Below are positions 3,241 through 26,098 of a stretch of DNA of 64,000 bases, in pieces. The first letter of the stretch is position 1. Every line of letters starts with the position of its first letter. The position numbers were made by a program, and so were the translations under genes. The notes below the pieces were generated by a model. That model did no database searches. It saw nothing but the letters and a program-made list of their open reading frames with translations, and was not told where the DNA came from. The DNA is from Vreelandella titanicae BH1. Lineage in GTDB: Bacteria > Pseudomonadota > Gammaproteobacteria > Pseudomonadales > Halomonadaceae. Location of the stretch: NCBI RefSeq assembly GCF_000336575.1, contig NZ_AOPO01000003.1:186001-250000 (forward strand), in the 5' to 3' direction.

Positions 3241-3295
3241 ACTCAGCAGCTATGTGCTTTACTATCTGCAACTGTTATTCACGGAGGAAACATCC

Positions 3296-4246
3296 ATGGC
3301 CATAGGCGGCTTGATAGGATTACTGGATGACATTGCCGCATTGGCGAAGTTGACCGCAGCATCATTGGACGATGTGAGTGCCGCCGCTGGGCGTGCGACG
3401 GCGAAGGCGGCCGGGGTGGTGGTGGATGATACGGCGGTGACGCCGCAATATTTACAGGGAGTGGCAGCGGAGCGTGAACTGTCGCTTGTGAAGCAGATCG
3501 CGCTAGGGTCGATCCGCAACAAGCTGATTTTTATCCTGCCGGTGGCGCTGCTGCTGAATCACTTTTTACCCGCGCTATTGCCGATCATCCTGATGGTGGG
3601 TGGCACCTATCTGGCCTTTGAGGGCGCTGAGAAGGTGTGGCACAAGTTTTCCGGTAAGCATGACGACGACAAACCAGCGGTAGAAAAGGGGCCGGAAGCC
3701 GAGAAAAAGATCGTGAGTGGTGCCATTCGAACCGACCTGATTCTGTCTGCTGAAATCATGGTGATTGCGCTGGCCACGGTCTCCCATCAAGGATTCTGGT
3801 CACAGCTGGCGAGCCTGGTGGTGGTCGCGTTTGTCATCACTATTCTGGTGTATGGCGTGGTGGCACTGTTGGTCAAAATGGATGATATCGGCCTGAAGCT
3901 CGCCCAGCGGGATAGTTCGAGCATGCAGACACTGGGCCGTGGTCTGGTGACGGCCATGCCCAAGGTGCTAGCGACCATTTCGGTCGTGGGAACCGTCGCC
4001 ATGCTCTGGGTGGGTGGGCATATCCTGATGGTCAATCTGGGTGCCGATGGCACGGATTGGTTCAACGCGCCCTATGAGTGGGTACACCATATTGAGCAAG
4101 GCATTAGCGAGGCAACCGGTGCCTTGGGCGGTTTGCTGGGCTGGAGCTTCAATACGCTGTGCTCTGCGGTAATTGGCTTTTTGGTGGGCTCGGTTGTGGT
4201 GGGTGTGATGCACCTACTTCCCGGTAAGAAGGCGCATGCCGAGTAG
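3296..4246 (+). CDS. DUF808 family inner-membrane protein (YedI-like), copy A
   Basis: A 316-residue membrane protein of the DUF808 family (E. coli YedI is a member); function unknown. The N-terminus MAIGGLIGLLDDIAALAKL and the following VSAAAGRATAKAAGVVVDDTAV are characteristic of the family. Several hydrophobic helices follow, including a pair at about residues 75-105 and others between 160 and 310. The start at 3296 is set by GGAGG at 3283-3287, eight bases upstream. It is monocistronic and ends in a clear terminator. A near-identical paralogue is at 24056-25006, including the upstream 40 bases, so the duplication is recent and took the ribosome-binding site with it. Confidence 0.92.
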   Translation: MAIGGLIGLLDDIAALAKLTAASLDDVSAAAGRATAKAAGVVVDDTAVTPQYLQGVAAERELSLVKQIALGSIRNKLIFILPVALLLNHFLPALLPIILMVGGTYLAFEGAEKVWHKFSGKHDDDKPAVEKGPEAEKKIVSGAIRTDLILSAEIMVIALATVSHQGFWSQLASLVVVAFVITILVYGVVALLVKMDDIGLKLAQRDSSSMQTLGRGLVTAMPKVLATISVVGTVAMLWVGGHILMVNLGADGTDWFNAPYEWVHHIEQGISEATGALGGLLGWSFNTLCSAVIGFLVGSVVVGVMHLLPGKKAHAE

Positions 4247-10620: not shown

Positions 10621-10745
10621 ACCTATGAGCCGAATATAAACCATAATCGGCTCAAGATATGATCTGAATAACTGAGGTGGTAAAGGAATTTGGTGATGCT
10701 GGTTAAGCAACTACCGAAGGCTTTTCGGTAGTTCATCAAGAAATA
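10621..10745 (+). repeat. Operator-like interspersed repeat, copy 1, with hairpin
   Basis: ATGAGCCGAAT, then ATCGGCTCA in inverted orientation, then ATGATCTGAAT form the core shared with copies near 17,888, 27,207, 36,270 and 42,206. Downstream is a hairpin, AACTACCGAA-GGCT-TTCGGTAGTT (about 10711-10735), that resembles the one after copy 5 and could terminate transcription from either side. It lies between the SDR and EamA genes, which converge here. Confidence 0.65.
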
Positions 10746-12752: not shown

Positions 12753-13133
12753 TCAACCTTCCCGATCCCGGTCATATCGCTCCACGGCAGGGAAGGGTGG
12801 CAACCAATGTTCACGTCGAATGTTCCAAAGCTCATACGTCGCTTTCAGCTGATTGGGTGAATCAAGGGTGCCAAGGTGTATTTCGATTTCTTCCTCGCTT
12901 ACCGAAAAAACCGACGAACTGCATGCTGAACAGAAGTAGCGCCCCTGATAACGGTGCGGTTCGCCTTCGATAATGACAGCTTGCTTGGGATAATCAGCAG
13001 CGGCATAGAAAAGCGCTGCGTGAGGAGGGGCATGGGGTTTGGGCGCAATCACTTTACTGCTTAAAAGATCGTGAACAGGTTCTAAAGGGTCATTCAGAGA
13101 CGCCCTCGCAGTTGTCGTGATACAGCGGGGCAT
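12753..13133 (-). pseudogene. GFA-family protein truncated at its 5' end and fused to foreign sequence
   Basis: From about 13016 down to 12753 the minus strand encodes the C-terminal two thirds of a GFA (glutathione-dependent formaldehyde-activating enzyme-like) protein, close to the intact copies at 15139 and 22440. The first 40 residues, which hold the GCLCGK and CHCMDC zinc ligands, are replaced by unrelated residues, and FCSACGSS has become FCSACSSS. The 126-codon frame is open but should not bind zinc normally. The same junction sequence recurs at about 25262-25358, so the breakpoint predates a duplication. Confidence 0.75.
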
Positions 13134-13398
13134 CGGTGCCCAACACTAGGCGCTTGGTGGCGTGATTGTAGTAGAAGCGACCGGACTCGGCGCGTGAAAG
13201 CTCATAGTTGCCGCACACCCCATAGCCCTTGTTGACTTGCGTCAAGTGGGAGATCTCGGCCGGTGCCTGGCTGTCGAGGCGTTCAGATATAGTCGCGGCG
13301 ATGTGGGCATCACGCTGGGCCTCAGAATAGGCCTGGCTACCGAATACCAGGCCAGCAACGACGAAAATGGCGACGACGGGAATCCATAGATTATGCAT
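13090..13398 (-). CDS. Conserved hypothetical protein with N-terminal membrane anchor (copy A)
   Basis: A 102-residue protein starting MHNLWIPVVAIFVVAGLVFG, a single hydrophobic helix or uncleaved signal, followed by a polar domain with two cysteines (GYGVCGNYELS and YHDNCEG) that could form a disulphide in the periplasm. I do not recognise the family. A copy at 25359-25667 differs at only a few residues, and the upstream 260 bases are shared too. That conservation after duplication suggests a real gene. No clear ribosome-binding site is visible. Confidence 0.65.
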   Translation of the reverse strand: MHNLWIPVVAIFVVAGLVFGSQAYSEAQRDAHIAATISERLDSQAPAEISHLTQVNKGYGVCGNYELSRAESGRFYYNHATKRLVLGTDAPLYHDNCEGVSE

Positions 13399-13585
13399 AG
13401 AGTGTCCAGTTAGAGGATATAAAGGTGCATGAATTCGGTAGAAAGATTATTTAGCTGGATAATAACTTTCTGCCCATCCAATTTCATTGGTTGGCGAGTA
13501 GTTGGTTTACACAAGGATCCGCGCCAACCTTACGGCACTAAACTGCTTTATGTAGTGGTTCACTGATTTCGGACACCCATCGCCC

Positions 13586-13760
13586 CAGCACGATGCTATT
13601 GTCCTATACACACGTCAAGGCGCACCTCAGCGCCCAGGCAGCGAGGTATTATTGGGTTGGCTGCGTGAGGTATTGAGTGATGAGCAGATTGCTGAAGCGA
13701 TAGGCTTGGCGCTTGGCGCTAGGTGCAGTGGCTGAGCTGCGTGTTGAAGGTAAGCGCTGA
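13586..13760 (+). pseudogene. Chimera of LysR tail and Rpn tail (copy A)
   Basis: 13586-13678 matches the end of the LysR gene at 12570-12660 (HDAIVLYTRQGAPQRPGSEV and LLGWLREVL). It continues in frame into SDEQIAEAIGLAL, the Rpn C-terminal helix, then shifts frame and stops. The exchange point is the similar run GTGxTGrGTGATGAG present in both parents. A sister copy at 25855-26022 has a stop codon at the join. Neither has a start codon. Confidence 0.75.
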
Positions 13761-13805
13761 TCTGGCTTTTATTACGTATCTGGTTTCGTGCATAGCGCAT
13801 CGAAA

Positions 13806-13840
13806 GAAAGGGCAGTCCAATTGGCTGCCCTTTCTGTATT
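13806..13840 (+). terminator. Terminator-like hairpin downstream of the Rpn-tail fragment
   Basis: GAAAGGGCAG and CTGCCCTTTC form a 10-base stem with T-rich sequence after it. The same hairpin follows the full-length rpn gene at 21134 and the second chimera at 26064, so it is the native rpn terminator carried along with the fragments. Confidence 0.75.
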
Positions 13841-14004
13841 TGGTTGCTGAGGATGGCAGACATTCCCCATGCCATGAAAGACCCCAGCGTCAGGTTAAGT
13901 GTTGCACCTACTGATATTCTTTCTTAAATTTTTATTAGGGAGTTAAAAGAGACACTTGGGTCTATCTATTTAGATGAACGTCGGCAAGCATATGAATTGC
14001 TGCT

Positions 14005-14032
14005 TCAATGGTTGTCAATTGACAACCATTGA
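14005..14032 (+). promoter_or_regulatory. Perfect 28-base palindrome upstream of the HicA-like gene (copy A)
   Basis: TCAATGGTTGTCAA and its exact complement TTGACAACCATTGA abut with no spacer. It ends 27 bases before the ATG of the HicA-like gene and contains TTGACA, a good -35 box. A perfect palindrome at this place is expected for an autorepressing helix-turn-helix antitoxin, here probably the protein at 14333. Block B has the same element extended to 32 bases. Confidence 0.75.
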
Positions 14033-14059
14033 GGGGGGCTTCATACTCAGAGGCAAATA

Positions 14060-14329
14060 ATGACTCGTCCATCACATCCGAAAAAAGAGATCGAAACTGC
14101 CCTCAAACATGCGGAAGCGGAGGGCTGGCGAGTTGAAGTCGGCGGTAGTCACGCCTGGGGCAAGATTTACTGTCCCTATAATGATGATGAATGCCGCTGC
14201 GGTGAGTTTTGTATCGCGAGCGTGTGGAGTACACCGAAAAATCCCGGCAGCCACGCCCGGGCAATTCGGAGAGTGGTGGACAAGTGCTCGACCCACAAGC
14301 GTCGAGACGAAGCGGAGCCGGAGGATTGA
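14060..14329 (+). CDS. HicA-like small protein, possible toxin (copy A)
   Basis: An 89-residue protein. Its first half (KKEIETALKHAEAEGWRVE then GGSHAWGKIYCP) resembles HicA mRNA interferases: a helix ending in GW, then the GGSH motif with the catalytic His. The second half (NPGSHARAIRRVVDKC) resembles the closing helix of HicA. It adds four cysteines (YCPYNDDECRCGEFC) that could bind metal, not typical of HicA. AGAGG lies seven bases before the ATG. It is four bases from the helix-turn-helix gene downstream and has a palindromic operator upstream. The copy at 21385 encodes an identical protein. HicA-like is a structural inference, not a firm family assignment. Confidence 0.7.
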   Translation: MTRPSHPKKEIETALKHAEAEGWRVEVGGSHAWGKIYCPYNDDECRCGEFCIASVWSTPKNPGSHARAIRRVVDKCSTHKRRDEAEPED

Positions 14330-14332
14330 AGA

Positions 14333-14857
14333 ATGGAATATATTTTTACGCTGAAATACCAACTGGCTGATAGTGACTCCGACCTAGATGCGCTAGTGGA
14401 GCGTTTGGGCGCTGCCGGTTGCGATGATGCTCTGGTGGGCGTGGGGCAGCCGGGCCGCTTGGCGCTGGAATTCTCTCGTGAAGCGGGCAGCGCCGCGGAA
14501 GCGGTTCACAGTGCCCTGGTTGACGTAAAAAAAGCGATCCCTTCCGCGCGGCTGATTGAGGCTTCGCCGGATCTTGTTGGCCTGACGGATGTAGCAGACG
14601 TTGTGGGCGTTTCGCGACAGGCAATGCGAAAGCTGATGCTCACCCACCGAGCGACGTTTCCTGTACCGGTTCACGAAGGCAGTGCCTCAATCTGGCACCT
14701 GGCGGAGGTGCTTGACTGGTTGATGACCCGAGGGGGTTACCAAATTGATGTTGGCGTGCTGGATATTGCGAAAGTAGCATTAGAAGTGAATATAGCCAAA
14801 GAGGCGATCCGCCATCCGGTTAGTAGCCGCGAGGAAATGGAGTTGCTGACCGCGTAG
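14333..14857 (+). CDS. Helix-turn-helix protein, probable cognate antitoxin/repressor (copy A)
   Basis: A 174-residue protein with an N-terminal alpha-beta domain (residues 1-85, alternating strands and helices) followed by a helix-turn-helix, LTDVADVVGVSRQAMRKLM (about 84-102), and an IWHLAEVLDWL motif like that of AlpA/MerR-type DNA-binding proteins. It starts four bases after the HicA-like gene, so the two are coupled. HicB antitoxins also join a partial RNase-H-like domain to a DNA-binding domain, but this N-terminus is not clearly HicB. It probably binds the 28-base palindrome. The paralogue at 21658 differs at only a few residues (for example Glu-Arg to Gly-His near residue 23). Confidence 0.7.
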   Translation: MEYIFTLKYQLADSDSDLDALVERLGAAGCDDALVGVGQPGRLALEFSREAGSAAEAVHSALVDVKKAIPSARLIEASPDLVGLTDVADVVGVSRQAMRKLMLTHRATFPVPVHEGSASIWHLAEVLDWLMTRGGYQIDVGVLDIAKVALEVNIAKEAIRHPVSSREEMELLTA

Positions 14858-14891
14858 CCAACAGTTCAATAGTTTGTTGGAGAATAAAGAC

Positions 14892-15098
14892 ATGTTGGCA
14901 GAAAATTTGGAAAACTGGGCTCAGCAAGAGCGCCAGGAAGGCGAAAAGCTGGGCATTGAGAAAGGTGAGAAGCTGGGTGTTGAGAAAACAGCTCGTAATC
15001 TGCTTAAGCTGGGAGTGCTGAGTGTTGAGCAGATTGCTGAAGCGACAGGCTTGGTGCTAAAGGATGTGGTTAAGCTGCGCACTGAAGGTAAGCGCTGA
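14892..15098 (+). CDS. Free-standing Rpn C-terminal domain, RpnS-like (copy A)
   Basis: A 68-residue protein from MLAENLENWAQQER, nearly identical to the last 72 residues of the full-length Rpn at 20127-21089 and lacking the whole nuclease domain. The start is retained: GGAG at 14879-14882 lies nine bases before the ATG. Homology to rpn begins about 20 bases before that site. Two GEKLG(I/V)EK octapeptides are present. It lies 34 bases after the helix-turn-helix gene and is probably in the same operon. In E. coli the separately translated Rpn tail (RpnS) inhibits the nuclease; here it would be an orphan inhibitor in trans. A decayed remnant is the alternative, but frame and start are intact. 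Confidence 0.7.
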   Translation: MLAENLENWAQQERQEGEKLGIEKGEKLGVEKTARNLLKLGVLSVEQIAEATGLVLKDVVKLRTEGKR

Positions 15099-15110
15099 TC
15101 GATTGCCTTC
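15084..15110. repeat. Hairpin at the Rpn-tail/GFA junction
   Basis: GAAGGTAA at the end of the RpnS-like gene pairs with TTGCCTTC after an 11-base loop that holds the stop codon. The same structure with a perfect stem (GAAGGTAA/TTACCTTC) is at 12698-12724 after the LysR gene and at 22385-22411. In all three places it joins a plus-strand gene to a convergent GFA gene, so it may be a terminator and a recombination point. Confidence 0.6.
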
Positions 15111-15138
15111 TGACCTAAGCGGCAGCCCTTGAACCTGC

Positions 15139-15513
15139 TCAAACTTCCCTATCCCGTTCGTATCGCTCCACGTTTGGAAATGGCGGTAGCCAATGTTCTC
15201 GGCGAATGTTCCAAAGCTCATATGTCGGTTTCAGCTGATTGGGTGAATCAAGGGTGCCAAGGTGTATTTCGATTTCTTCCTCGCTTACCGAAAAAACCGA
15301 CGAACCGCATGCTGAACAGAAGTAGCGCCCCTGATAACTGTGCGGTTCGCCTTCGATAATGACAGCTTGCTTTGGGTAATCGGCAGCCGCATAGAAAAGC
15401 GCCCCATGATGCTTGCGACAATCCATACAGTGGCAAATACCTACCCGGAGCGGCTCGCCATTGGCCACGATTCGGATCTTACCGCAGAGACAGCCACCCG
15501 TTAGTTGAACCAT
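15139..15513 (-). CDS. GFA-family (CENP-V fold) zinc protein, intact copy A
   Basis: A 124-residue protein of the GFA family (S-(hydroxymethyl)glutathione-activating-like). Zinc ligands are visible as GCLCGK (residues 7-12), CHCMDC (about 28-33) and FCSACGSS (about 66-73). GGAG lies about eight bases before the ATG. Family members bind two zinc ions; most have no proven substrate, and the name should not be read as proof of formaldehyde metabolism. It converges on the RpnS-like gene. The paralogue at 22440-22814 is almost identical, and a truncated third copy lies at 12753. No regulator is adjacent. Confidence 0.88.
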   Translation of the reverse strand: MVQLTGGCLCGKIRIVANGEPLRVGICHCMDCRKHHGALFYAAADYPKQAVIIEGEPHSYQGRYFCSACGSSVFSVSEEEIEIHLGTLDSPNQLKPTYELWNIRREHWLPPFPNVERYERDREV

Positions 15514-15820
15514 TGTTAATCTCCAGAAGATTTATACATTCAAAGTAGGTGGCACTTTCGATTTTGTCTTGCCGCCGTCTCGTTGGTATTTGATGCCAGC
15601 AAACCGAGATAAATCGAGCTGTTGCAGGAGGCGGATTCGCCTAAGAGCCCGGAATTAGTTTGTATCTCGGTTATACAAGCAGGCGCGGATATTAAGCGGG
15701 TAAATCGCCCTCCCTTGGTTCTTTAAAAGATAGATAATTGGTGAACTAAAGGTACACAAAATTTGATAATATTAAAGAGTCTCATGGCAGATTATTTAGT
15801 TAAGTGCTAATTTGTGAACC
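15514..15820. promoter_or_regulatory. Promoter region of the abiE operon and GFA gene
   Basis: This stretch holds no gene. It is repeated with few changes at 22815-23090. Just before abiEi lies GTGAACTAAAGGTACAC (about 15741-15757), an imperfect palindrome kept in block B, and AT-rich sequence suitable for a -10 box. AbiEi antitoxins autorepress by binding inverted repeats, so this is the candidate site. The stretch 15640-15700 has no recognised element. Confidence 0.45.
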
Positions 15821-16642
15821 ATGAGTACACTTAATGAAGAAAAGCTAAAGAAGGTGCTTGAAGCCATACCTTCAGGATTCATGGTTGACACCGCATGGCT
15901 TGAACGCCACGGTGTCAGCCGTTTCCTTGCTCGCAAATACGTTGATAACGGCTGGCTGGAGCGTGTTAACCGCGGCGTCTTCCGCCGCCCCGCGCCGAAC
16001 GCAATAAAGTCGGCCACCATCGATTGGAAAACCTGCCTGCTTTCCATGCAGCATATTATGCGCTATGACATCCATATCGGCGGTACCACGGCGCTTGCCC
16101 AACAGGGCTACGATCACTATCTGCGTCTGGGCAGCAATGCGCCTGTCTGGGTATATGGCGAGGCCACGCCCAATTGGCTCAGCAAGCTGCCACTCAACGC
16201 ACCACTTCAAACCCGTAGCACCTCGCTGTTCGCCGACTCATCGCTTGGGTTGGCCAAGGACAACATCAATGCCGAAGGCACGCTGCCATGGGACTGGATG
16301 CTTAAAATGTCGGCACCCGAAAGGGCAATTATGGAAGCTATGAACGAGCTGCCCGACCTTGAGAGTTTTCACAACCTCGATATGCTATTTGAGAGCCTGA
16401 CAACGCTGAGACCTAAACTACTGTCAGCGCTGCTGCATAGTTGTAAGAAGATCAAGGTAAAGCGTCTGTTCTTTGTTTTTGCAGATCGCCACGATCACCC
16501 CTGGCGCAAGCGCCTCGACCCAGCAGAGTTCAATCTTGGAAGTGGCGACCGCGCGCTGGTAAAAGGGGGCAAGATACATCCGCGCTATCGGATTATGGTG
16601 CCTGAAGCGTTTGTAACGGCGGAGGCCAACGATGGCACGTGA
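15821..16642 (+). CDS. abiEi: AbiEi-type antitoxin/repressor of a type IV toxin-antitoxin pair
   Basis: A 273-residue protein with an N-terminal winged helix region (LKKVLEAIPSGFMVDTAWL, then HGVSRFLARKYVDNGWLERV, residues 8-55), the DNA-binding part of AbiEi, followed by the larger C-terminal antitoxin domain (GGTTALAQQGYDHYL at about 88-102, APERAIMEAM at about 167). AbiEi binds its own promoter and protects against AbiEii without lasting contact with the toxin. It overlaps abiEii by 11 bases. AbiE systems cause abortive infection of phages and stabilise plasmids. A 5'-deleted, frame-broken copy lies at 23101. Confidence 0.88.
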   Translation: MSTLNEEKLKKVLEAIPSGFMVDTAWLERHGVSRFLARKYVDNGWLERVNRGVFRRPAPNAIKSATIDWKTCLLSMQHIMRYDIHIGGTTALAQQGYDHYLRLGSNAPVWVYGEATPNWLSKLPLNAPLQTRSTSLFADSSLGLAKDNINAEGTLPWDWMLKMSAPERAIMEAMNELPDLESFHNLDMLFESLTTLRPKLLSALLHSCKKIKVKRLFFVFADRHDHPWRKRLDPAEFNLGSGDRALVKGGKIHPRYRIMVPEAFVTAEANDGT

Positions 16643-17549
16643 AACCTATGAAGCACAGGTCGCACTTCTTGTGCGTATTCTCCCGCATGTCGCCAAGGAA
16701 GATGTATTCGCGCTCAAGGGCGGCACGGCGATAAACCTGTTCTATCGTGATCTTCCGCGTTTGTCGGTCGATATCGACCTGACCTACCTGCCGGTGAAAG
16801 ATCGAATCGATAGCCTTTCCGAGATCAACAACGCGATGGATCGCATTGCGGGGGCCATTGAAGGCGGTATCGTTGATGCCAAAACACAACGTATAAAGGG
16901 CGGCGGTGGTGGTGCCACTCGTCTTCTTGCTCGCATGGGCGGTGTAGAGATCAAGATCGAAACCTCTCCAGTCACACGCGGTGTCGTTCATGAGCCTGAA
17001 ACGCTTTCCGTCTCCGAAGCTGTTGAAGATGAGTTCGGCTACGCAGAGATGCAGATTGTCTCCTTCGAAGATCTGTTCGGCGGTAAGTTGAACGCAGCCG
17101 TCGACCGTCAGCATCCGCGCGACCTTTACGATGTGAAGCTGCTTTACGAGAACGAGGGCCTAACGGATGATCTATTTCGCACCTTTTTGATCTACATTGC
17201 GAGTTCGTCGCGCCCCGCGCATGAGCTGCTGAATCCGAATCTCATCAATCTTGATCAGCCTTATACTCAAGAATTTGAGGGAATGACCAGAGCTTCTGTC
17301 AGTCTCCAAGAGCTCTTGGACACCCGTAAACGATTGATTACAGATATTCATTCCCGCTTCGATGAGAACACCAAGCGATTCCTAATAAGCCTGCATGACG
17401 GTACGCCCGATTTTGATGCTATTGATCGCCCTCGGGCGGTGGATCTGCCAGCCGTACGCTGGAAGCTTATCAATCTGGGAAAACTGAAAAACGAAAATGC
17501 CGCCAAGCATGCTGAGCAACGGAGAAAGCTGGAAGTGTTGCTAGGGTAG
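16632..17549 (+). CDS. abiEii: AbiEii/AbiGii nucleotidyltransferase toxin
   Basis: A 305-residue DNA polymerase beta-like nucleotidyltransferase. The signature runs LKGGTAINLFYRDLPRLSVD then IDL: the GG at residues 30-31 and the two catalytic aspartates at 47 and 49. Further family blocks are VSFEDLFGGKLNAAVDRQHP and RDLYDVKLL. AbiEii-type toxins transfer nucleotides to RNA targets (in some relatives tRNA acceptor stems) and cause growth arrest. GGAGG inside the end of abiEi supplies the ribosome-binding site, giving coupled translation. Full length and all motifs are present, so this copy should be active. Confidence 0.9.
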   Translation: MARETYEAQVALLVRILPHVAKEDVFALKGGTAINLFYRDLPRLSVDIDLTYLPVKDRIDSLSEINNAMDRIAGAIEGGIVDAKTQRIKGGGGGATRLLARMGGVEIKIETSPVTRGVVHEPETLSVSEAVEDEFGYAEMQIVSFEDLFGGKLNAAVDRQHPRDLYDVKLLYENEGLTDDLFRTFLIYIASSSRPAHELLNPNLINLDQPYTQEFEGMTRASVSLQELLDTRKRLITDIHSRFDENTKRFLISLHDGTPDFDAIDRPRAVDLPAVRWKLINLGKLKNENAAKHAEQRRKLEVLLG

Positions 17550-17809: not shown

Positions 17810-17960
17810 CCTAACTGGTGCGGTCTACTGAGCATTTCTACTGTTTAACCCACTCTTCTTTACCAACAAGTCCGCTGATGAGCCCACGAGCCGAATAGAA
17901 GTCATAATCGGCTCATAATATGAGCTGAATGGAGGCAATCGGCTCGTGTATGGCTAAACA
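17810..17960 (+). repeat. Operator-like interspersed repeat, copy 2
   Basis: The fullest copy holds four half-sites: GAGCCGAAT, ATCGGCTCAT, ATGAGCTGAAT and ATCGGCTCGT at about 17888-17948. The 75 bases before it also match those before copy 3 at 27127. It ends at GTGTATGGC, where an ATG opens a 42-codon frame. Confidence 0.7.
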
Positions 17961-18078: not shown

Positions 18079-18196
18079 GCAATGTGTATTGTTGGGCAGG
18101 TCAATATCGAACTGTTGATATGTCCAAACCGAATATTCGGTTTGCGTCGCCACTACAAATCCACAAACTGACACACCCGAAACGGCTGAGTGCTAT

Positions 18197-19036
18197 CTAA
18201 CCATTCCCCGCCACAATCAACATCGTCGCCACAATAGACAACGCTATCCCCACCATGCTGGTGCCGCTAACCGCCTCCTTGCGAACCAGTGAGCCGAATA
18301 CGACGGGTATCAGCGGGTACATCGACACAATCACAATGCTGATAATGGTGAGCTGTCCTTGCCGTGATAGCGCATAGAGCGTAAGCCCTAGAGCGCTGAT
18401 ACCGCCCGCCATCGTTGAGAAAAGTGGAAGGCGTATTTGAGCTGGCTTCGTGCGTTGGTAAAACGGCAGTAGACACACGGCACCGTTTAGCATGCATAGG
18501 GCGATGCCATACAGCGCCGCATGGTCGGGCACCTGCCCAAGAAAGTGCAGCTGCAGAGAAAACCCCAACCCTGCACCTAACCCAAAGAGCAGGCCTGTTC
18601 TGATTATGCTGCTCACCTGCCCTTTGTTTATCCTACCTCCGCCCGTCGTTAGCCAGATAGCGGGCAAGGCGATCATCACACCTAGCCATACCCAAGCGTT
18701 GGGCCGCTCGCCAAGAAATACCAAAGAGAGCCCAAGGGCGATGGTTACCATCGAGACAGCGCTAACAGGCACTACGATAGCAAAGGGAGCCTGCGATAAG
18801 CCTTTATAAAGCAGCAATGCGCCCAGGGCTGAGCCAAGGCCAGCAAGCGTACCCCATTTCCAGGTATCTGGCTCCCATGTGGAAAAGAGCAGCGCGACTG
18901 CAAGACTGACAAGCGCCCCGCCCAGATGGGTGTAAAAACCAATATTAAGCGGCGGGTAAAAACGGGCGAGCAAGCCATTGATAAAGTGTGTACTGCCGAG
19001 CAACAACATGGCGCTTAGTGCCAGAACGATGGACAT
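18197..19036 (-). CDS. EamA/DMT-family transporter (copy B, intact)
   Basis: A 279-residue, ten-helix EamA exporter (LLGSTHFINGLLARFYPPLN near the start, FVxGNG end). It is the unbroken paralogue of the split gene at 624-1462, about four in five residues identical. The linker between the two halves (GGGRINKGQVSSIIRTG) shows where the other copy lost one base. It is divergent from the LysR paralogue at 19136, so the two-gene module was duplicated as a unit. Substrate unknown; inner membrane. Confidence 0.9.
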   Translation of the reverse strand: MSIVLALSAMLLLGSTHFINGLLARFYPPLNIGFYTHLGGALVSLAVALLFSTWEPDTWKWGTLAGLGSALGALLLYKGLSQAPFAIVVPVSAVSMVTIALGLSLVFLGERPNAWVWLGVMIALPAIWLTTGGGRINKGQVSSIIRTGLLFGLGAGLGFSLQLHFLGQVPDHAALYGIALCMLNGAVCLLPFYQRTKPAQIRLPLFSTMAGGISALGLTLYALSRQGQLTIISIVIVSMYPLIPVVFGSLVRKEAVSGTSMVGIALSIVATMLIVAGNG

Positions 19037-19135
19037 GGGATTTCCAGGTCAGGATGATAAATGAAAGGCCAGCATAGAAGGCGCTAGTGCTTGGCTGGAA
19101 ACTCGGTTCGCTCATGGCCGTTATGAGGAGGGATG

Positions 19136-20044
19136 ATGATAAGAGGCGCCGACATCTCTATTGCCCAACTACGTGTGCTGCTTGCGGTAGTGGAAGAGCA
19201 ATCCTATACCCGGGCGGCGGCGCGACTGGGCGTTAGCCAATCTGGCGTAAGTCACTCAATGCAGGCATTGGAAAAGCTGGTAGGTGGCCCACTTATCACA
19301 AAAGCGGCGGAAAGATGGGAGCCGACTGCCTTAGGCGAGTTAGTGCTTACTAGTGCCAGAAAGGTTGTAGGAGAGTTTCAGGTATTGAGCCAGCAAGTGG
19401 CCCAATTTCATAATGAAGTAGATGAAACGCTGAAAATAGGTGTAATTCCCAGTGCATTAACAGGATGGTTATCCCCACACCTTTCTAGCTTAACGAGCCG
19501 CTACCCTGATGCCATTAGCCTTGTGCTGGAAGGCATGGAGGAAGAGATAAAGGAGTGGGTGGAAAGCGGCGTGGTTGATATGGGCATAACCACCGATGTG
19601 ACGCAGCTTAATCTCACCTACTGGTGTGAGCACTTCGATTGGCAGCTACTAAAGAAGGATGAGGTCGTTGCCGTTTTACCCGAGAACCATTCACTCCGCA
19701 AACAAGCTAGCGTTACGGTAGCGGAGCTTGCCGATCATCCGTTGATTATGTCGTCAGGGGGTTGTGAGGCGCTTATTCAGCAGATATTTGCTCACTCATT
19801 GGAGGAAGTCGATACTTTTCAGGTGGATTTTTGGGTACGTGATACGCGCACGCTGTTGCAGATGGTTGCTGGCGATGTCGGTGTTAGCCTAGTGCCCACA
19901 CTGGCGTTAAACAATAAGCCAGCAGCTAATGTGGTAACGCTGCCGTTATCTCCCCAACGTGACCGGAACCTGATTGCCTTTTGGGCTAAATGGCAGCCGC
20001 TGAATCAGGTCGGCCAACAACTACTGAAAGAGTGCAAAGCGTAA
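19136..20044 (+). CDS. LysR-family transcriptional regulator (copy B)
   Basis: A 302-residue LysR protein, paralogue of 1562-2464. Same helix-turn-helix (AARLGVSQSGVSHSMQALEK) and effector domain; differences cluster in the linker (ITKAAERWEPTALGE). GAGGAGG upstream favours ATG 19136 over 19133. It probably controls the divergent EamA gene. A fragment of a third member of this subfamily, its C-terminal tail only, lies at 26224-26310. Differences from copy A suggest an older duplication than that of the toxin-antitoxin blocks. Confidence 0.9.
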   Translation: MIRGADISIAQLRVLLAVVEEQSYTRAAARLGVSQSGVSHSMQALEKLVGGPLITKAAERWEPTALGELVLTSARKVVGEFQVLSQQVAQFHNEVDETLKIGVIPSALTGWLSPHLSSLTSRYPDAISLVLEGMEEEIKEWVESGVVDMGITTDVTQLNLTYWCEHFDWQLLKKDEVVAVLPENHSLRKQASVTVAELADHPLIMSSGGCEALIQQIFAHSLEEVDTFQVDFWVRDTRTLLQMVAGDVGVSLVPTLALNNKPAANVVTLPLSPQRDRNLIAFWAKWQPLNQVGQQLLKECKA

Positions 20045-20126
20045 CGGGCTTTCCATCGCATGGTGTGAATGTATTACGGATGGATGAGCATGGTAATCTG
20101 TCTCGTAACGATTGGCAGAGGTCTCC

Positions 20127-21089
20127 ATGGTTAATAACCACCACGATACCGGCTACAAAGAGTTGTTTAGTTATCCTGAATTTGTTCAGCAACTCATCGA
20201 AGGCTTTGCTCCCGCCGAGATTGCCCGGTTAATGGATTTTTCTACCCTGAAGAGCCAGAGCGGCAACTACATTACGCCACTGTTCGAAGAAAAAATTGAG
20301 GACGTGGTGTGGTCAGTCAACGTTAACTGGCAAGGGATGACCCAAGAGGTGTACCTGTACATCTTGTTGGAGTTTCAGTCCTCGGTGGATCGCACCATGC
20401 CGGTTCGGCTGATGCACTACGCCGCTTGCTTCTACAGTGAATTGCTCAAGCAGAAGGTCATCACACCCGGCCAGGGCTTACCGCCGGTGTTTCCGGTAGT
20501 GCTTTATAACGGCTCAGAGCGCTGGACGGCATCGTTAGATCTCTATGACATGATCATGCCGGAACCGCCGGGTCTCCTACAGGTCTACCAGCCACGCATG
20601 CGTTATTATTTAGTCGATGAAGGGCGCTATACTGATGAGCAGCTAGGCTTGGTGCAGTCGCCGTTAAGCGGGGTGTTCAGTATCGAGAAGGCTTCCACAA
20701 ATCGCCAGGGGCTTCAGCAAGCTGTGGATCGGATTGTGGCGATTATTCAGGCCGATTCTCACAAAGAGCGTATCGACAAGATTATTACCCGCTGGCTTAA
20801 GCGCCACTTGCAGCGGCTCGGGGCTGAGGTCGACCTCAATCAGCTCAACAGTTTGGTGGAGGATAAAGACATGTTGGCAGAAAATTTGGAAAACTGGGCT
20901 CAGCAAGAACGCCAAGTAGGCATTCAGGAAGGCGAAAAGCTGGGCATCGAGAAAGGTGAAAAGCTAGGCATCGAGAAAACTGCCCGTAATCTGCTCAAGC
21001 TGGGGGTGCTGAGTGATGAGCAGATTGCAGGAGCGACAGGCTTGGCGTTAGAGGATGTGGCTAAGCTGCGCACTGAAGGCCAGCGCTGA
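20127..21089 (+). CDS. rpn: Rpn-family recombination-promoting nuclease (full length)
   Basis: A 320-residue PD-(D/E)XK-type protein of the Rpn/transposase_31 family. The N-terminal nuclease region has the phrase DTGYKELFSYPEFVQQLIEG, the acidic position before VVWSVN, and the LLEFQSS (ExQ) catalytic motif at about residues 80-86. The C-terminal tail carries repeated GEKLGIEK octapeptides and a final helix (LSDEQIAGATGLALEDVAKL). ATG 20127 with AGAGG just upstream is chosen over TTG 20112. Rpn proteins cut DNA and in E. coli act as toxic antiphage proteins held by their own tail. It is followed by the hairpin at 21134. It is the only intact member here and the likely donor of all the tails. 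Confidence 0.9.
   Translation: MVNNHHDTGYKELFSYPEFVQQLIEGFAPAEIARLMDFSTLKSQSGNYITPLFEEKIEDVVWSVNVNWQGMTQEVYLYILLEFQSSVDRTMPVRLMHYAACFYSELLKQKVITPGQGLPPVFPVVLYNGSERWTASLDLYDMIMPEPPGLLQVYQPRMRYYLVDEGRYTDEQLGLVQSPLSGVFSIEKASTNRQGLQQAVDRIVAIIQADSHKERIDKIITRWLKRHLQRLGAEVDLNQLNSLVEDKDMLAENLENWAQQERQVGIQEGEKLGIEKGEKLGIEKTARNLLKLGVLSDEQIAGATGLALEDVAKLRTEGQR
20871..21089 (+). CDS. Internal start for a short Rpn tail product (RpnS candidate)
   Basis: Inside rpn, GGAGG at 20858-20862 stands eight bases before an in-frame ATG at 20871. Translation there gives 72 residues: MLAENLENWAQQERQVG, octapeptide repeats, and the closing helix. This matches the genes-within-genes arrangement described for E. coli Rpn proteins, where the tail is made separately and blocks the nuclease. 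Both detached tails (14892, 22217) start at the homologous ATG with the same upstream signal, which supports selection on this start. Confidence 0.7.
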   Translation: MLAENLENWAQQERQVGIQEGEKLGIEKGEKLGIEKTARNLLKLGVLSDEQIAGATGLALEDVAKLRTEGQR

Positions 21090-21133
21090 TCCTTGCTTTC
21101 ATTTACGTATTCCCGCTTCACACATAAAACGAG

Positions 21134-21165
21134 AGGGCAGTCCAATTGGCTGCCCTTTCTGTATT
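21134..21165 (+). terminator. Terminator of rpn
   Basis: AGGGCAG and CTGCCCT form a stem around TCCAATTGG, followed by TTTCTGTATTT, 45 bases after the rpn stop. The hairpin also appears after the Rpn-tail fragments at 13806 and 26064. Confidence 0.75.
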
Positions 21166-21327
21166 TGGTTGCTGAGGATGGCAGACATTCCCCATGCCAT
21201 GAAAGCCCCCAGCGTCAGGTTAAGTGTTGCACATACTGATATTCTTTTTTAAATTTTTATTAGGGAGTTAAAAGAGACACTTGGGTCTATCTATTTAGAT
21301 GAACGTCGGCAAGCATATGAATTGCTG

Positions 21328-21359
21328 CTTCAATGGTTGTCAATTGACAACCATTGAAG
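21328..21359 (+). promoter_or_regulatory. Perfect 32-base palindrome upstream of the HicA-like gene (copy B)
   Basis: CTTCAATGGTTGTCAA abuts its exact complement. It is the copy-A palindrome lengthened by two matched bases at each end through one base difference (G to A at the position matching 14033). It ends 25 bases before the ATG at 21385. Likely operator of the downstream helix-turn-helix protein. Confidence 0.75.
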
Positions 21360-21384
21360 GGGGCTTCATACTCAGAGGCAAATA

Positions 21385-21654
21385 ATGACTCGTCCATCAC
21401 ATCCGAAAAAAGAGATCGAAACTGCCCTCAAACATGCGGAAGCGGAGGGCTGGCGAGTTGAAGTCGGCGGTAGTCACGCCTGGGGCAAGATTTACTGTCC
21501 CTATAATGATGATGAATGCCGCTGCGGTGAGTTTTGTATCGCGAGCGTGTGGAGTACACCGAAAAATCCCGGCAGCCACGCCCGGGCAATTCGGAGAGTG
21601 GTGGACAAGTGCTCGACCCACAAGCGTCGAGACGAAGCGGAGCCGGAGGATTGA
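21385..21654 (+). CDS. HicA-like small protein, possible toxin (copy B)
   Basis: This 89-residue protein is identical to that at 14060-14329, with the GW and GGSH motifs of HicA-type interferases and an added four-cysteine stretch. The copy has the same AGAGG signal, four-base gap to the helix-turn-helix gene and palindrome upstream. Two identical toxin-like genes 7.3 kb apart mean that either antitoxin could serve both. The duplication is recent since even silent positions agree. Confidence 0.7.
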   Translation: MTRPSHPKKEIETALKHAEAEGWRVEVGGSHAWGKIYCPYNDDECRCGEFCIASVWSTPKNPGSHARAIRRVVDKCSTHKRRDEAEPED

Positions 21655-21657
21655 AGA

Positions 21658-22182
21658 ATGGAATATGTTTTTACGCTGAAATACCAACTGGCTGATAGTG
21701 ATTCCGACCTAGATGCGCTGGTGGGGCATTTGGGCACTGCCGGTTGCGATGATGCTCTGGTGGGCGTGGGGCAGCCGGGCCGCTTGGCGCTGGAATTCTC
21801 TCGTGAAGCGGGCAGCGCCGCGGAAGCGGTTCGCACTGCCCTGGTTGACGTAAAAAAAGCGATCCCTTCCGCGCGGCTGATCGAGGCTTCGCCGGATCTT
21901 GTTGGCCTGACGGATGTAGCAGACGTTGTGGGCGTATCCCGACAGGCAATGCGAAAGTTGATGCTCACCCACCGAGCGACGTTTCCTATGCCGGTTCACG
22001 AAGGCAGTGCCTCAATCTGGCACCTGGTGGAGGTGCTTGACTGGTTGATGACCCGAGGGGGTTACCAAATTGATGTTGGCGTGCTGGATATTGCGAAAGT
22101 AGCATTAGAAGTGAATATAGCCAAAGAGGCGATCCGCCATCCGGTTCGTAGCCGCGAGGAAATGGAGTTGCTGACCGCGTAG
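21658..22182 (+). CDS. Helix-turn-helix protein, probable cognate antitoxin/repressor (copy B)
   Basis: A 174-residue paralogue of 14333-14857 with the same alpha-beta N-terminal domain and helix-turn-helix (VADVVGVSRQAMRKLM). Differences from copy A are few and mostly conservative (for example EYVF for EYIF, VGHLGTAG for VERLGAAG, HLVEVLDW for HLAEVLDW). It begins four bases after the HicA-like gene and is followed 34 bases later by the RpnS-like tail. The DNA-binding helix is unchanged between copies, in keeping with their shared palindrome. Confidence 0.7.
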   Translation: MEYVFTLKYQLADSDSDLDALVGHLGTAGCDDALVGVGQPGRLALEFSREAGSAAEAVRTALVDVKKAIPSARLIEASPDLVGLTDVADVVGVSRQAMRKLMLTHRATFPMPVHEGSASIWHLVEVLDWLMTRGGYQIDVGVLDIAKVALEVNIAKEAIRHPVRSREEMELLTA

Positions 22183-22216
22183 CCAACAGCTCAACAGTTT
22201 GTTGGAGGATAAAGAC

Positions 22217-22399
22217 ATGTTGGCAGAAAATTTGGAAAACTGGGCTCAGCAAGAACGCCAGGAAGGCGAAAAGCTGGGCATTGAGAAAACGGCCCGTAAT
22301 CTGCTCAAGCTGGGAGTGCTGAGTGACGAGCAGATTGCTGAAGCGACAGGCTTGGTGCTAGAGGATGTGGTTAAGCTGCGCACTGAAGGTAAGCGCTGA
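22217..22399 (+). CDS. Free-standing Rpn C-terminal domain, RpnS-like (copy B)
   Basis: A 60-residue protein beginning MLAENLENWAQQERQEGEKL, the Rpn tail without nuclease. GGAGG at 22204-22208 is eight bases before the ATG, exactly as in full-length rpn. It has one GEKLGIEK unit, against two in copy A and two plus an extra QVGIQE in full-length rpn, so the repeat number varies. The final helix keeps LSDEQIAEATGLVLEDVVKL. It is the third gene after the palindrome and probably co-transcribed. The family role suggested is inhibitor of the Rpn nuclease. Confidence 0.7.
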   Translation: MLAENLENWAQQERQEGEKLGIEKTARNLLKLGVLSDEQIAEATGLVLEDVVKLRTEGKR

Positions 22400-22439
22400 T
22401 CGATTACCTTCTGACCTAAGCGGCAGCCCTTGAACCCGC

Positions 22440-22814
22440 TCAATCTTCCCGATCTCGTTCGTATCGCTCCACGTTTTGAAATGGCGGTAGCCAATGTTCG
22501 CGGCGAATGCCCCAAAGCTCATACGTCGGTTTAAGTTGATTGGGTGAATCAAGGGTACCAAGGTGTATTTCGATTTCTTCCTCGCTTACCGAAAAAACCG
22601 ACGAACCGCATGCGGAACAGAAGTAGCGCCCCTGATAACTGTGCGGTTCGCCTTCGATAATGACAGCTTGCTTGGGATAATCAGCAGCCGCATAGAAAAG
22701 CGCCCCATGATGCTTGCGACAATCCATACAGTGGCAAATACCTACCCGAAGCGGCTCGCCATTGGCCAAGATTCGGATCTTACCGCAGAGACAGCCACCT
22801 GTTAGTTGTTCCAT
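22440..22814 (-). CDS. GFA-family zinc protein, intact copy B
   Basis: A 124-residue paralogue of 15139-15513, with GCLCGK, CHCMDC and FCSACGSS zinc-ligand clusters complete. GGAG before the ATG at 22812-22814 sets the start; a TTG two codons upstream is less likely. It converges on the RpnS-like gene across a hairpin (22385-22411). Only a few residues differ from copy A (for example ILANGE for IVANGE). Function as for the family: zinc-binding, substrate unproven. Confidence 0.88.
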   Translation of the reverse strand: MEQLTGGCLCGKIRILANGEPLRVGICHCMDCRKHHGALFYAAADYPKQAVIIEGEPHSYQGRYFCSACGSSVFSVSEEEIEIHLGTLDSPNQLKPTYELWGIRREHWLPPFQNVERYERDRED

Positions 22815-23100
22815 TGCCAATCTCCAGAAGATTCATACATTCAAAGTAGGTGGCACTTTTTGTTTTGTCTTGCTGCCGTCTCGTTGGTATTTGATGCCCG
22901 CAAACCGATAAAAGCTAGCTGTTGCAGGAGGCGGATTTGCCTTAGAGCCCGGAATTAGTTTGTATCTCGGTTACAAGCAGGCGCGGATATTAAGCTGGTA
23001 AATCGCCTCCCCGTGGGTCTTTAAAAGATAGGTGCTTTGTGAACTAAAAGTACACAAAATTTGACGATATTAAAGAGCCTTATGGAAGATTCTTTAGTTA
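22815..23100. promoter_or_regulatory. Second copy of the abiE promoter stretch
   Basis: This matches 15514-15800 with scattered changes, including the palindrome-like GTGAACTAAAAGTACAC just before the gene. At about 23098 the match jumps about 470 bases ahead into the abiEi coding sequence, so the promoter now precedes a gutted gene. Nothing else is seen. Confidence 0.5.
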
Positions 23101-23459
23101 ATCAACGCCGAAGACACGCTGCCATGGGACTGGACGCTCAAGAGGTCGGCACTCGAAAGGGCAATTATGGAAGCTATGGACGAGCTGCCCGACCATGAGA
23201 GTTTTCACAATCTCGATATGCTATTTGAGAGCCTGACAACGCTGCGCCCTAAACTACTGGCAGCTCTGCTGCAGAGTTGTAAGTAGATCAAGGTAAAGCG
23301 GCTATTCTTTGTCTTTGTCGATCGCCTCGATCCCCCCTGGCGCAAGCGCTTCGACCCAGCAGAGTTCAATCTCGGCAGCGGCGACCGTGCACTGGTAAAG
23401 GGGGCAAGATACGTCCGCGCTATCGGATTATGGCGCCTGAAGCGTTTGTAAGGACGGAG
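23101..23459 (+). pseudogene. abiEi remnant (5' half deleted)
   Basis: The sequence matches abiEi from about 16268 to its end, so the DNA-binding N-terminal half is missing. A TAG replaces a lysine codon at about 23284 and a lost base near 23400 shifts the frame. No product is expected. Comparison with 15821-16642 gives the deletion of about 470 bases in the 5' half. Confidence 0.85.
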
Positions 23460-23466
23460 ACCAACG

Positions 23467-23960
23467 ATGGCACGTGAAACCTATGAAGCACAGGTCGCAC
23501 TTCTTGTGCGTATTCTCCCGCATGTCGCTAAGGAAGATGTATTCGCGCTGAAGGGCGGCACGGCGATAAACCTGTTCTATCGTGATCTCCCGCGTTTGTC
23601 AGTCGATATCGACCTGACCTACCTGCCGGTGAAAGATCGAAACGATAGCCTTTCCGAGATCAACAACGCGATGGCCACCAAAAATTTGAGGGAATGACCA
23701 GAGCTTCTGTCAGTCTCCAAGAGCTCTTCGACACCCGTAAACGATTGATTGCAGATATTCATTCCCGCTTCGATGAGAACACCAAGCAATTCCTAATGAG
23801 CCTGCATGACGGTATGCCCGATTTTGATGCTATTGATCGCCCTCGGGCGGCGGATCTGCCTGCCGTACGCTGGAAGCTTATCAATCTGGAAAAACTGAAA
23901 AACGAAAACGCGGCCAAACATGCTGAACAACGTCATGAGCTGAAAGTACTGCTGGGGTAA
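23467..23960 (+). pseudogene. abiEii remnant with internal deletion
   Basis: The first 70 codons match abiEii, including the GG and the two catalytic aspartates, but at about 23673 some 430 bases are missing compared with 16632-17549 and the frame changes. The last 88 codons continue in another frame (23694-23960). The toxin is therefore inactive here. The intact operon lies 6.8 kb upstream. Confidence 0.88.
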
Positions 23961-24055
23961 GGTGCGCAAGTCGGAATCTTGAAGCAAAAGAGGCGATCCG
24001 CCCAAGCCGCTTTGTGCTCTACTATCTGCACCTGTTATTCACGGAGGAAGCACCC

Positions 24056-25006
24056 ATGGCCATAGGCGGCTTGATAGGATTATTGGATGACATTGCCGCA
24101 TTGGCGAAGCTGTCCGCAGCATCATTGGATGATGTGAGTGCCGCCGCAGGGCGTGCGACGGCGAAGGCGGCCGGGGTGGTGGTGGATGATACGGCGGTGA
24201 CGCCGCAATATTTGCAGGGGGTAACAGCGGAGCGGGAACTGGCGATTGTGAAGAAGATCGCGCTGGGGTCGATTCGCAACAAGCTGATTTTTATCCTGCC
24301 GGTGGCGCTGCTGCTGAATCACTTTTTGCCCGCGCTATTGCCGATCATCCTGATGGTGGGCGGCACCTACTTGGCCTTTGAGGGCGCTGAGAAGGTCTGG
24401 CACAAGCTCTCTGGTCAGCATGACGACGATAAGCCAGCGGTAGAGAAGGGACCGGAGGCCGAGAAACAGATCGTGGGTGGCGCTATTCGTACCGACCTGA
24501 TTCTGTCCGCCGAAATCATGGTGATCGCGCTTTCAACAGTGTCCCATCAAGGGTTCTGGTCGCAGATGGTTAGCCTGGTGGTGGTCGCGTTTGTCATCAC
24601 ACTTCTGGTGTATGGAGTAGTGGCGCTGTTGGTCAGGATGGATGATATCGGCCTGAGGCTCGCCCAGCGGGATAGTTCGGGCGTGCAGACACTGGGCCGT
24701 GGCCTGGTGACAGCCATGCCTAAGGTGCTAGCGACCATCTCGGTCGTGGGTACTGTCGCCATGCTCTGGGTGGGTGGGCATATACTGATGGCCAATCTAG
24801 GTGCCGATGGTACGGGTTGGTTCAACGCTCCCTATGAGTGGGTACACCATATTGAGCTTGGCATTAGCGAGGCAACCGGTGCCCTGGGCGGCACGCTGGG
24901 CTGGAGCTTCAATACACTGTGCTCTGCGGTGATTGGCTTTTTGGTGGGCTCGGTAGTGGTGGGCGTGGTGCACCTACTTCCTGTTAAGAAGGCGCATGTC
25001 GAGTAA
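24056..25006 (+). CDS. DUF808 family inner-membrane protein (YedI-like), copy B
   Basis: A 316-residue paralogue of 3296-4246 with the same MAIGGLIGLLDDIAALAKL start, membrane helices and C-terminus; more than nine in ten residues agree. The same GGAGG signal precedes it. Instead of the terminator seen after copy A, a fragment of rpn follows four bases after the stop. Just upstream (about 23980-24005) GAAGCAAAAGAGGCGATCCGCC resembles the end of the helix-turn-helix gene, another patch of the mosaic. Function unknown. Confidence 0.9.
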   Translation: MAIGGLIGLLDDIAALAKLSAASLDDVSAAAGRATAKAAGVVVDDTAVTPQYLQGVTAERELAIVKKIALGSIRNKLIFILPVALLLNHFLPALLPIILMVGGTYLAFEGAEKVWHKLSGQHDDDKPAVEKGPEAEKQIVGGAIRTDLILSAEIMVIALSTVSHQGFWSQMVSLVVVAFVITLLVYGVVALLVRMDDIGLRLAQRDSSGVQTLGRGLVTAMPKVLATISVVGTVAMLWVGGHILMANLGADGTGWFNAPYEWVHHIELGISEATGALGGTLGWSFNTLCSAVIGFLVGSVVVGVVHLLPVKKAHVE

Positions 25007-25065: not shown

Positions 25066-25358
25066 GATCATTGAACTCTGTTGGCTGTCCCTCTCGTCAG
25101 GCCTGAGCACCGCACAGGAGCAAGAGGTTGGGGCAACTTCGATAGCTCACCCACTGTCATTGGTCGCGCAAATGATCGTCAACCTTATCAGGACGGGCGA
25201 CGAAGAGGCTGATCTTGTCCCGAGAGAATATGGTGGAAGTTTCGAGGGGTAAAAGGGCCACTAAAGCAGCGGCATAGAAAAGCGCTGCGTGAGGAGGGGC
25301 ATGGGGTTTGTGCGCAATCACTTTACTGCTGAAAAGATCGTGAACAGGTTCTAAGGGG
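25066..25358. other. Mosaic stretch without a functional gene
   Basis: 25262-25358 repeats the junction at 12990-13090 (a 20-base GFA remnant followed by the same unknown sequence). 25066-25260 is unique in this window; the minus strand reads FSRDKISLFVARPDKVDDHL before a stop and resembles no family I can name. Confidence 0.5.
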
Positions 25359-25667: not shown

Positions 25668-25854
25668 AGAGTGTCCAGTGAGAGGATATAAAAGTGCATG
25701 AATTCGGTAGAAAAATTATTTAGCTGGATAATAACTTTTTGCCCATCCGATTTCATTGGTTAGCGAGTAGTTGGTTTACACAAGGATCCGCGCCAACCTT
25801 ACGACACTAAACTGCTTTATGAAGTGGTTCACTGATTCCGGACACCCATCGCCT

Positions 25855-26022: not shown

Positions 26023-26063
26023 TCCGTGCTTTCATTTACGTATTCCCGCTTCACACATAAAAC

Positions 26064-26098
26064 GAAAGGGCAGTCCAAGTGACTGCCCTTTCTGTATT
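26064..26098 (+). terminator. rpn-type terminator hairpin
   Basis: GAAAGGGCAGTC and GACTGCCCTTTC form a perfect 12-base stem with a CAAGT loop, followed by TGTATTT. It is the third copy of the hairpin that follows rpn. Confidence 0.8.

Follow-up and report, generated by a model that had tools for sequence, protein, structure and literature searches.

Gene content of the locus

The window, a stretch of 64,000 nucleotides from Vreelandella titanicae BH1 (contig NZ_AOPO01000003.1, positions 186,001 to 250,000), carries two copies of a small cassette in which a palindrome is followed by an 89-aa open reading frame, a 174-aa open reading frame and a free-standing piece of an rpn gene. This order, pointed out in a preliminary description of the sequence, is borne out at 14005-15098 and 21328-22399, and the palindromes before the first gene are indeed perfect, over 28 bp in copy 1 and over 32 bp in copy 2. 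The features discussed below are these:

13674..13762, plus strand: rpn-tail remnant upstream of cassette 1, 78% identical to 15019-15100
14005..14032, no strand: perfect 28-bp palindrome of copy 1, predicted operator, with the core GGTTGTCAATTGACAACC at 14010-14027
14019..14047, plus strand: predicted promoter TTGACA-N17-CATACT, its -35 box inside the palindrome, kept across 82 loci
14060..14329, plus strand: M06A copy 1, 89 aa, predicted HicA-like toxin (PADLOC PDC-M06A, phrog_5923)
14333..14857, plus strand: M06B copy 1, 174 aa, predicted antitoxin and autorepressor with an AlpA-like helix-turn-helix (HTH) (PDC-M06B, phrog_2620)
14892..15098, plus strand: free-standing Rpn tail, RpnS-like, 68 aa, judged an insertion leftover; TTG start at 14874
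20112..21089, plus strand: complete Rpn gene immediately upstream of copy 2 (Transposase_31, E 4.3e-30)
21328..21359, no strand: perfect 32-bp palindrome of copy 2
21385..21654, plus strand: M06A copy 2, identical to copy 1 over all 270 nt
21658..22182, plus strand: M06B copy 2, differing from copy 1 at 16 of 525 nt
22217..22399, plus strand: free-standing Rpn tail of copy 2, 60 aa

The spacing was described as tight, at 4 and 34 bases; the 34 bases from the stop of gene 2 to the tail ATG stand, but genes 1 and 2 are 3 bases apart. The recurrence of the arrangement had also been taken as conservation in two places. Both cassettes belong to one repeat (13674-15803 versus 21010-23101, 93% identical across 2132 nt), so what is kept in two places is a duplication, with no independent conservation. 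Similarity continues beyond the 93% block in ungapped pieces at 88-96%, with deletions, on through the AbiEi/AbiEii genes. This type IV pair is whole beside copy 1 (15821-17549), and pieces of both genes lie beside copy 2 (23101-23960). M06A and its leader are nearly identical between the copies (14005-14329 versus 21330-21654; 0 differences in the 270 nt of the gene and 1 in 55 nt of leader), and such near-identity inside a block diverged by 7% would reflect gene conversion or unusually strong constraint. M06B has gathered 7 synonymous and 9 non-synonymous changes since the duplication (P 0.08), which indicates little constraint.

Identity and spread of the gene pair

Pfam and NCBIfam give nothing above cut-off for either M06 protein. 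PADLOC recognizes the first as PDC-M06A (E 1.4e-51) and the second as PDC-M06B (E 3.1e-80), and with both models matched by adjacent genes the pair is a member of PDC-M06. The cassette had been described as an unfamiliar module; the pair turns out to be a known PADLOC candidate, although no function is given for it there. Open-licence PMC papers yielded none on PDC-M06, and the 2021 PADLOC paper (PMC8565338) has no "PDC". The same literature gave nothing joining HicA, phage-plasmid and AlpA, or HicA-like, integrase, toxin-antitoxin and ICE, and where guaA, HicA and integrase occur together in it, guaA is merely a tree marker.

A search of genome contigs with M06B found 91 relatives, the best 80 of which form the locus set used here. 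The nearest of the best 80 of 91 lies in Vreelandella glaciei (98%), and the hosts of these loci include Halomonas-group bacteria, Pseudomonas, Burkholderiales, Buttiauxella and one cyanobacterium. The pair is also found in beta- and alphaproteobacteria, cyanobacteria and SSU5-type phage-plasmids, with A-B pairs in Gloeothece, Picosynechococcus (where A is unannotated) and an alphaproteobacterium. Plasmid records hold 275 matches, 14 of them covering at least 80% of the query, and E. coli genomes show no match at the DNA level. M06A and M06B match phrog_5923 and phrog_2620 (E 1.2e-16 and 4.2e-21), which adjoin in Escherichia phage Cyrano under the depositors' names "HicA toxin protein" and "putative antitoxin HicB". 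Carriers of this Cyrano-type pair are presumably SSU5-type phage-plasmids, judging from SSU5 records. In IMG/VR the M06A profile finds a partner in 21 of 22 loci; in the exception (L132) an in-frame stop cuts A and B is complete.

The two genes keep close company. Across 369 genomes of the class (E 0.001), A occurs in 18 and B in 21; they occur together and adjacent in 17, B is alone in 4, and the sole A-only genome (G379) holds a 21.8-bit fragment with a stop. Both genes are intact in 66 of the best 80 of 91 loci, A is broken and B intact in 9, and both are broken in 4, while the one remaining locus has an intact A and a B split by a run of N at an assembly gap. The asymmetry between broken A and intact B comes from a set that was seeded on B and that A-only loci could escape. 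Two small, adjacent, co-occurring genes, of which the antitoxin may outlast the toxin, are the mark of a type II toxin-antitoxin system in the wide sense, and the pair has this form. Within the halophile subset, dN/dS has a median of 0.084 among 11 A sequences and of 0.093 among 12 B sequences. In Kineobactrum sediminis (L032:3728-4525) M06A has no stop and runs in frame into M06B as a 265-aa fusion.

A HicA-like protein and its partner

The fold prediction proposed in the preliminary description gives M06A a HicA-like order of strands and helices. An AF2 model of M06A (pLDDT 78) places helices at residues 9-20 and 62-85 and strands at 24-27, 32-37 and 52-56, an alpha-beta-beta-beta-alpha order that agrees with the three-stranded sheet and two helices given for HicA in the relevant passages of PMC3969222. 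According to the same passages, Gly22 and His24 of HicA, in the beta1-beta2 turn, are needed for toxicity; M06A has this Gly and His in its turn, by an assignment that draws on an hhalign stretch and inspection by eye. Invariant residues in 48 chosen M06A sequences are M1, R3, H6, E12, W23, H31, G34, C38, P39, C45, R46, G48, F50, C51 and P59, and G22 and G29 are kept in at least 90% of them. Of 86 distinct sequences in a broader sample, 85 have the key His (Tyr in the exception, L159) and 77 the Gly two residues before it, and a Cys-rich loop between strands 2 and 3 retains C38 in 86, C45 in 74, C47 in 71 and C51 in 77.

What stands of the "HicA-like" label is the predicted order of strands and helices and the histidine; a match to the HicA profile does not. 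The window M06A hits 0 Pfam families up to E 1, and so not PF07927 (HicA), and Pfam HicA touches 1 of the 48 members, at E 0.12. Aligned with HicA by hhalign, M06A receives a probability of 8.5% with the first set, and wider sets give 8.5 and 18%. The alignment spans no more than the GW..GSH stretch, and the score of 17.75 compares with 17.3 for the best of 200 column shuffles. The search against HicA and HicB profiles that had been suggested returns no significant HMM match for either protein, and the link of M06A to HicA, as far as sequences and profiles suggest one, is weak. Among solved structures, sequence comparison finds no credible relative (best E 0.54 and 0.68).

Could the partner be a HicB? 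The M06B model (pLDDT 83) has strands at 2-10, 33-37, 42-50 and 73-78 and helices at 18-27 and 54-68, then further helices that include the HTH; the predicted order is beta-alpha-beta-beta-alpha-beta followed by an AlpA-like HTH. This is not the order of strands and helices for which HicB is known. No HicB family is among 25 of the 26 Pfam families found for 50 M06B members, and hhalign against 31 HicB sequences gives a probability of 0.3%; Pfam, hhalign and the model order together rule out that M06B is HicB. Phage_AlpA is weakly touched by 29 of the 50 members (best E 5.6e-4).

In HicAB systems the toxin gene comes first. The pair resembles HicAB (PF07927/PF15919) in this order, in a small alpha-beta-beta-beta-alpha protein with Gly and His in the beta1-beta2 turn, in a partner with a DNA-binding domain and in a patchy, mobile spread that takes in phages and plasmids, as passages of PMC2701414 describe. 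Unlike HicAB, neither M06A nor M06B has a significant HicA or HicB HMM match, M06A has the Cys-rich loop between strands 2 and 3, and M06B combines the beta-alpha-beta-beta-alpha-beta order with an AlpA-like HTH. The resemblance is one of outline, and the pair fails the tests of the HicA HMM and the HicB partner.

The leader palindrome

None of 200 mononucleotide shuffles of the 150-nt leader reaches the palindrome score. The core TTGTCNNNNGACAA (TTGTC-N4-GACAA) precedes M06A in 81 of 82 loci with an A start, a set in which several genomes appear twice, once per collection; the exception (L058) has the core with one mismatch. The centre of the palindrome lies 39-42 nt upstream of the M06A start in 68 of the 82. 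Nine further loci lack a recognized A start, and the motif lies at most 420 nt from B in 3 of them, with none there in 6; in L092 and L094, where A is lost, it stands 95 and 91 nt upstream of B. The right half of the palindrome contains TTGACA, and 17 bp on follows CATACT, kept at C 55%, A 90%, T 66%, A 79%, C 72% and T 84% across the 82 loci. A consensus promoter scan finds 1 promoter against 1.0 expected per shuffle, a chance level that alone is no evidence. The SSU5-type pair phrog_5923/phrog_2620 shares the gene order, homologous proteins and a palindrome holding a TTGACA box. It differs in having its own motif, GTTGACANNTGTCAAC, which takes the place of the core in 20 of 23 phage-plasmid loci and carries TTGACA in the left arm; in Cyrano this TTGACA lies, by eye, 17 bp before TAGAAT.

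With up to one mismatch allowed, the 18-base core has 2 sites in the 5.3-Mb genome, both at these cassettes, and a search for regulon sites in 80 loci (629 kb) adds 3 exact cores, each resembling the same leader displaced. Because the core is conserved and contains the -35 box, the palindrome is most likely the predicted operator of an autorepressor. RptR, in the portion of PMC12255303 that describes it, is a different repressor with a 6-bp site.

The outer arms vary, and they vary together. All four types of pair are seen at positions 10-14, and complementarity there reaches 55-64% where 26-36% is expected, a level matched by 0 of 2000 shuffles (73 distinct of 81 leaders, 1 of the 82 being too short). 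The signal persists when the set is thinned by M06B identity and whole arms are re-dealt: with 58, 32 and 21 loci left, 0 of 2000 shuffles reach it in each case. Could the arms be kept as an RNA stem? Over positions 10-16, mismatches of both kinds fall under expectation (GT 43 versus 68.5, AC 34 versus 43.3), and an RNA stem is not the best reading of the arm covariation alone. As GT is not favoured over AC, we take the signal to lie at the DNA level, in selection for a long palindrome or in copying of one arm onto the other. Quasi-palindrome correction, in which replication copies one arm onto the other, is a process of the latter kind.

As RNA the window leader folds at -27 kcal/mol (z -7.4), which leaves room for a hairpin role; no known structured RNA was found in it, one miRNA match lying far below the gathering score. 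Arms that vary between species at positions 10-16 from the centre and yet remain complementary, around a nearly invariant core, are what a hairpin reading draws on. Here the palindrome would act as a folded hairpin besides being an operator, a toxin with a dsRBD-like fold, whose gene starts about 27 nt further on, could bind it or cut it in read-through transcripts, and the module would sense not just the occupancy of its DNA but also the RNA made from it (or a cruciform extruded from the DNA). We regard this as quite improbable.

Islands, phage-plasmids and neighbours

The searched upstream flank contains guaA in 31 of the best 80 of 91 loci (tblastn); the gene in these island flanks is one that we take to be guaA from a reading of its protein. 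Tyrosine integrase matches occur in 20 of the best 80 of 91 (at least 66% identical to the queries in 18 loci, 26-33% in 2), an AlpA gene in 17, all with an integrase too, and guaA and integrase together in 14 of the same 80. Loci L021, L024, L042 and L053 have the order guaB-guaA-int-M06A-M06B-alpA; Pfam backs the integrase and AlpA in L021 and AlpA in L042 and L053. In a different setting, nine Buttiauxella loci have the pair after what we take to be bioBFCD, with a presumed uvrB-like gene further on in eight. M06A/M06B is an island module, often beside mobile-DNA genes. Islands at guaA that carry alpA and a P4-type integrase have been described (PMC7775301, PMC9376610); the passages concerned name no such pair, and the GIsul2 they describe has a different toxin-antitoxin elsewhere.

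Such neighbours raise the question of whether the pair controls the island itself, with M06B as an AlpA- or excisionase-like regulator of integration and excision, M06A as an accessory nucleic-acid-binding protein and no toxin involved. The phrog_2620 label, "excisionase and transcriptional regulator", would fit, as would the weak Phage_AlpA similarity of M06B and the 17 of the best 80 of 91 loci in which an integrase match lies 342-1985 nt upstream of M06B and an AlpA gene follows closely on the opposite strand. However, these islands already own a separate AlpA gene, and there is no second operator core near int or alpA, the three extra cores noted above looking like displaced leaders. Moreover, in 60 of the best 80 of 91 loci nothing in the available flank matches the two integrase queries (8 loci have less than 2.5 kb upstream), the nine Buttiauxella loci beside biotin genes being an example. 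An island control module is for these reasons an unlikely account of the pair.

The PADLOC entry implies another role, compatible with a toxin-antitoxin pair, in which phage infection releases M06A and the cell is arrested. Candidate status in PADLOC and the AbiE pair adjoining the cassette speak for it, as do a Wadjet JetA gene near the pair in L021 and an Mrr-type gene in L042. Against it, island sharing accounts for the association with defence genes, the pair is itself carried by phage-plasmids, and no assay of PDC-M06 was found in open-licence PMC literature. Anti-phage action is conceivable, and we hold it with some doubt. The JetA gene lies at L021:5893-7380, in a pair-carrying guaA island of Thalassolituus maritimus; other cargo near the pair includes, besides the Mrr-type nuclease of L042, TrbI in L037.

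The Rpn tail

The tail was correctly assigned in the preliminary description: it matches NCBIfam TIGR01784 (Rpn) at E 5.9e-7 and 29.6 bits, below the cut-off of 52.1. The claim that it forms a third member of the module fared otherwise. In a tblastn search at E 1e-2 of the available flanks, which very divergent tails could escape, Rpn-tail DNA lies near the pair only in L016-L020, 5 of the best 80 of 91 loci and all Halomonas-group; the other 75 of the 80 show no tail match. Eight copies of the cassette can be compared, namely the two in the window (W1 and W2), L004 and L016-L020 (L005, L006 and L007 repeat the contig positions of L016, L017 and L019). In 7 of the 8 the M06B stop leads into one rpn sequence, slightly varied between copies, shortly upstream of the RpnS start, and a single ancestral junction is therefore the simplest reading; in L020 the M06B-tail junction is deleted. 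The tail is intact in 4 of the 8 (W1, W2, L004, L019); in L018 it has a frameshift and in L017 an internal deletion, and L016 has lost nearly all of it. In Halomonas campaniensis (L020:4001-4747) M06B runs in frame into the Rpn tail as one 248-aa ORF.

Around cassette 2, direct repeats at 20841-21091 and 22187-22401 (81%) are the tail of the full rpn gene and the free tail. These flanking tails, and the remnant upstream of copy 1, are as homologous integration at rpn would give. There are 4 tail matches in the genome, among them a fragment of 27 residues, and of its 2 Rpn bodies one contains stops. The window tail resembles the RpnS of E. coli RpnA and RpnC, with 4-aa repeats after its start, as passages of PMC10327210 describe it; unlike RpnS it is not made from an internal start inside rpn, but is free-standing, downstream of M06B and beside an unrelated pair. 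The repeat numbers also differ: the free tails have 68 and 60 aa, the tail of the only intact Rpn found 72 aa. In the E. coli RpnC experiments of the same passages a matching repeat number was required and one extra repeat abolished inhibition by RpnS, which is the kind of mismatch seen here.

Is the tail nevertheless at work, tying the pair to the Rpn nuclease? An intact tail with its own start region in half of the copies and the L020 fusion could be read in this way. Between the W1 and W2 tails, 5 changes are synonymous and 2 are non-synonymous (P 0.0098), and because of this ratio the free tail may still be translated; median dN/dS of the free tails is 0.185 (10 pairs). However, the neighbouring GFA gene has a like ratio (14:6), and exchange with full-length rpn genes could be the source of the W1/W2 signal. 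With the junction shared, no tail match in most loci, three tails broken and the lengths mismatched, a working third member is very improbable, and the distribution and decay of the tail speak against a three-gene module. The tail appears to be a leftover of insertion into an rpn gene and no part of the module. What holds of the proposed cassette is a two-gene unit of a HicA-like and an HTH protein behind a conserved palindrome; the Rpn tail as a tied-in partner is not supported.

A toxin-antitoxin reading of the pair

We consider, with moderate confidence, that 14060-14857 and its duplicate are a HicA-like toxin-antitoxin module, autorepressed at the palindrome and dropped into an rpn gene. 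M06A would be a small HicA-like RNA-binding protein, a predicted RNase toxin using His31 of the beta1-beta2 turn, which M06B would bind and neutralize. The AlpA-like HTH of M06B would repress the shared promoter at the palindrome that overlaps the -35 box. The pair rides guaA-linked islands and phage-plasmids, probably stabilizing them, with phage defence possible too. In the Halomonas group the module would have been dropped at the start of the RpnS part of rpn, most simply by recombination between rpn tails, after which the adjoining tail pieces would have decayed.

Both proteins are strong members of PADLOC PDC-M06. New beyond that entry are the predicted operator with its covarying arms, the guaA-linked and phage-plasmid settings, the HicA-like order and the non-HicB partner. 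Should the pair prove to be a toxin-antitoxin system, it would bring in a HicA-like toxin whose partner is not HicB, carried by phage-plasmids and by guaA islands close to their integrase, and would give PDC-M06 a testable mechanism. The cassette also calls for caution, since an Rpn tail that stands free next to a defence gene can be the scar of an insertion.

Other repeats around the cassettes

The first 27 kb of the window are a repeat-rich region. Further duplicated blocks there are 623-2432 and 18196-20006 (79% identical), 3245-4245 and 24005-25005 (91%, containing a DUF808 gene) and 12996-13879 and 25265-26137 (93%). A dispersed short repeat with the inverted ends GAGCCGAATA...TCGGCTCA occurs at 10622-10682, 17883-17936, 27204-27257 and 36269-36327. 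Similar sequence, by eye, also flanks L006/L017, L016 and L019, and the repeat is perhaps a REP- or MITE-like element of the Halomonas group.
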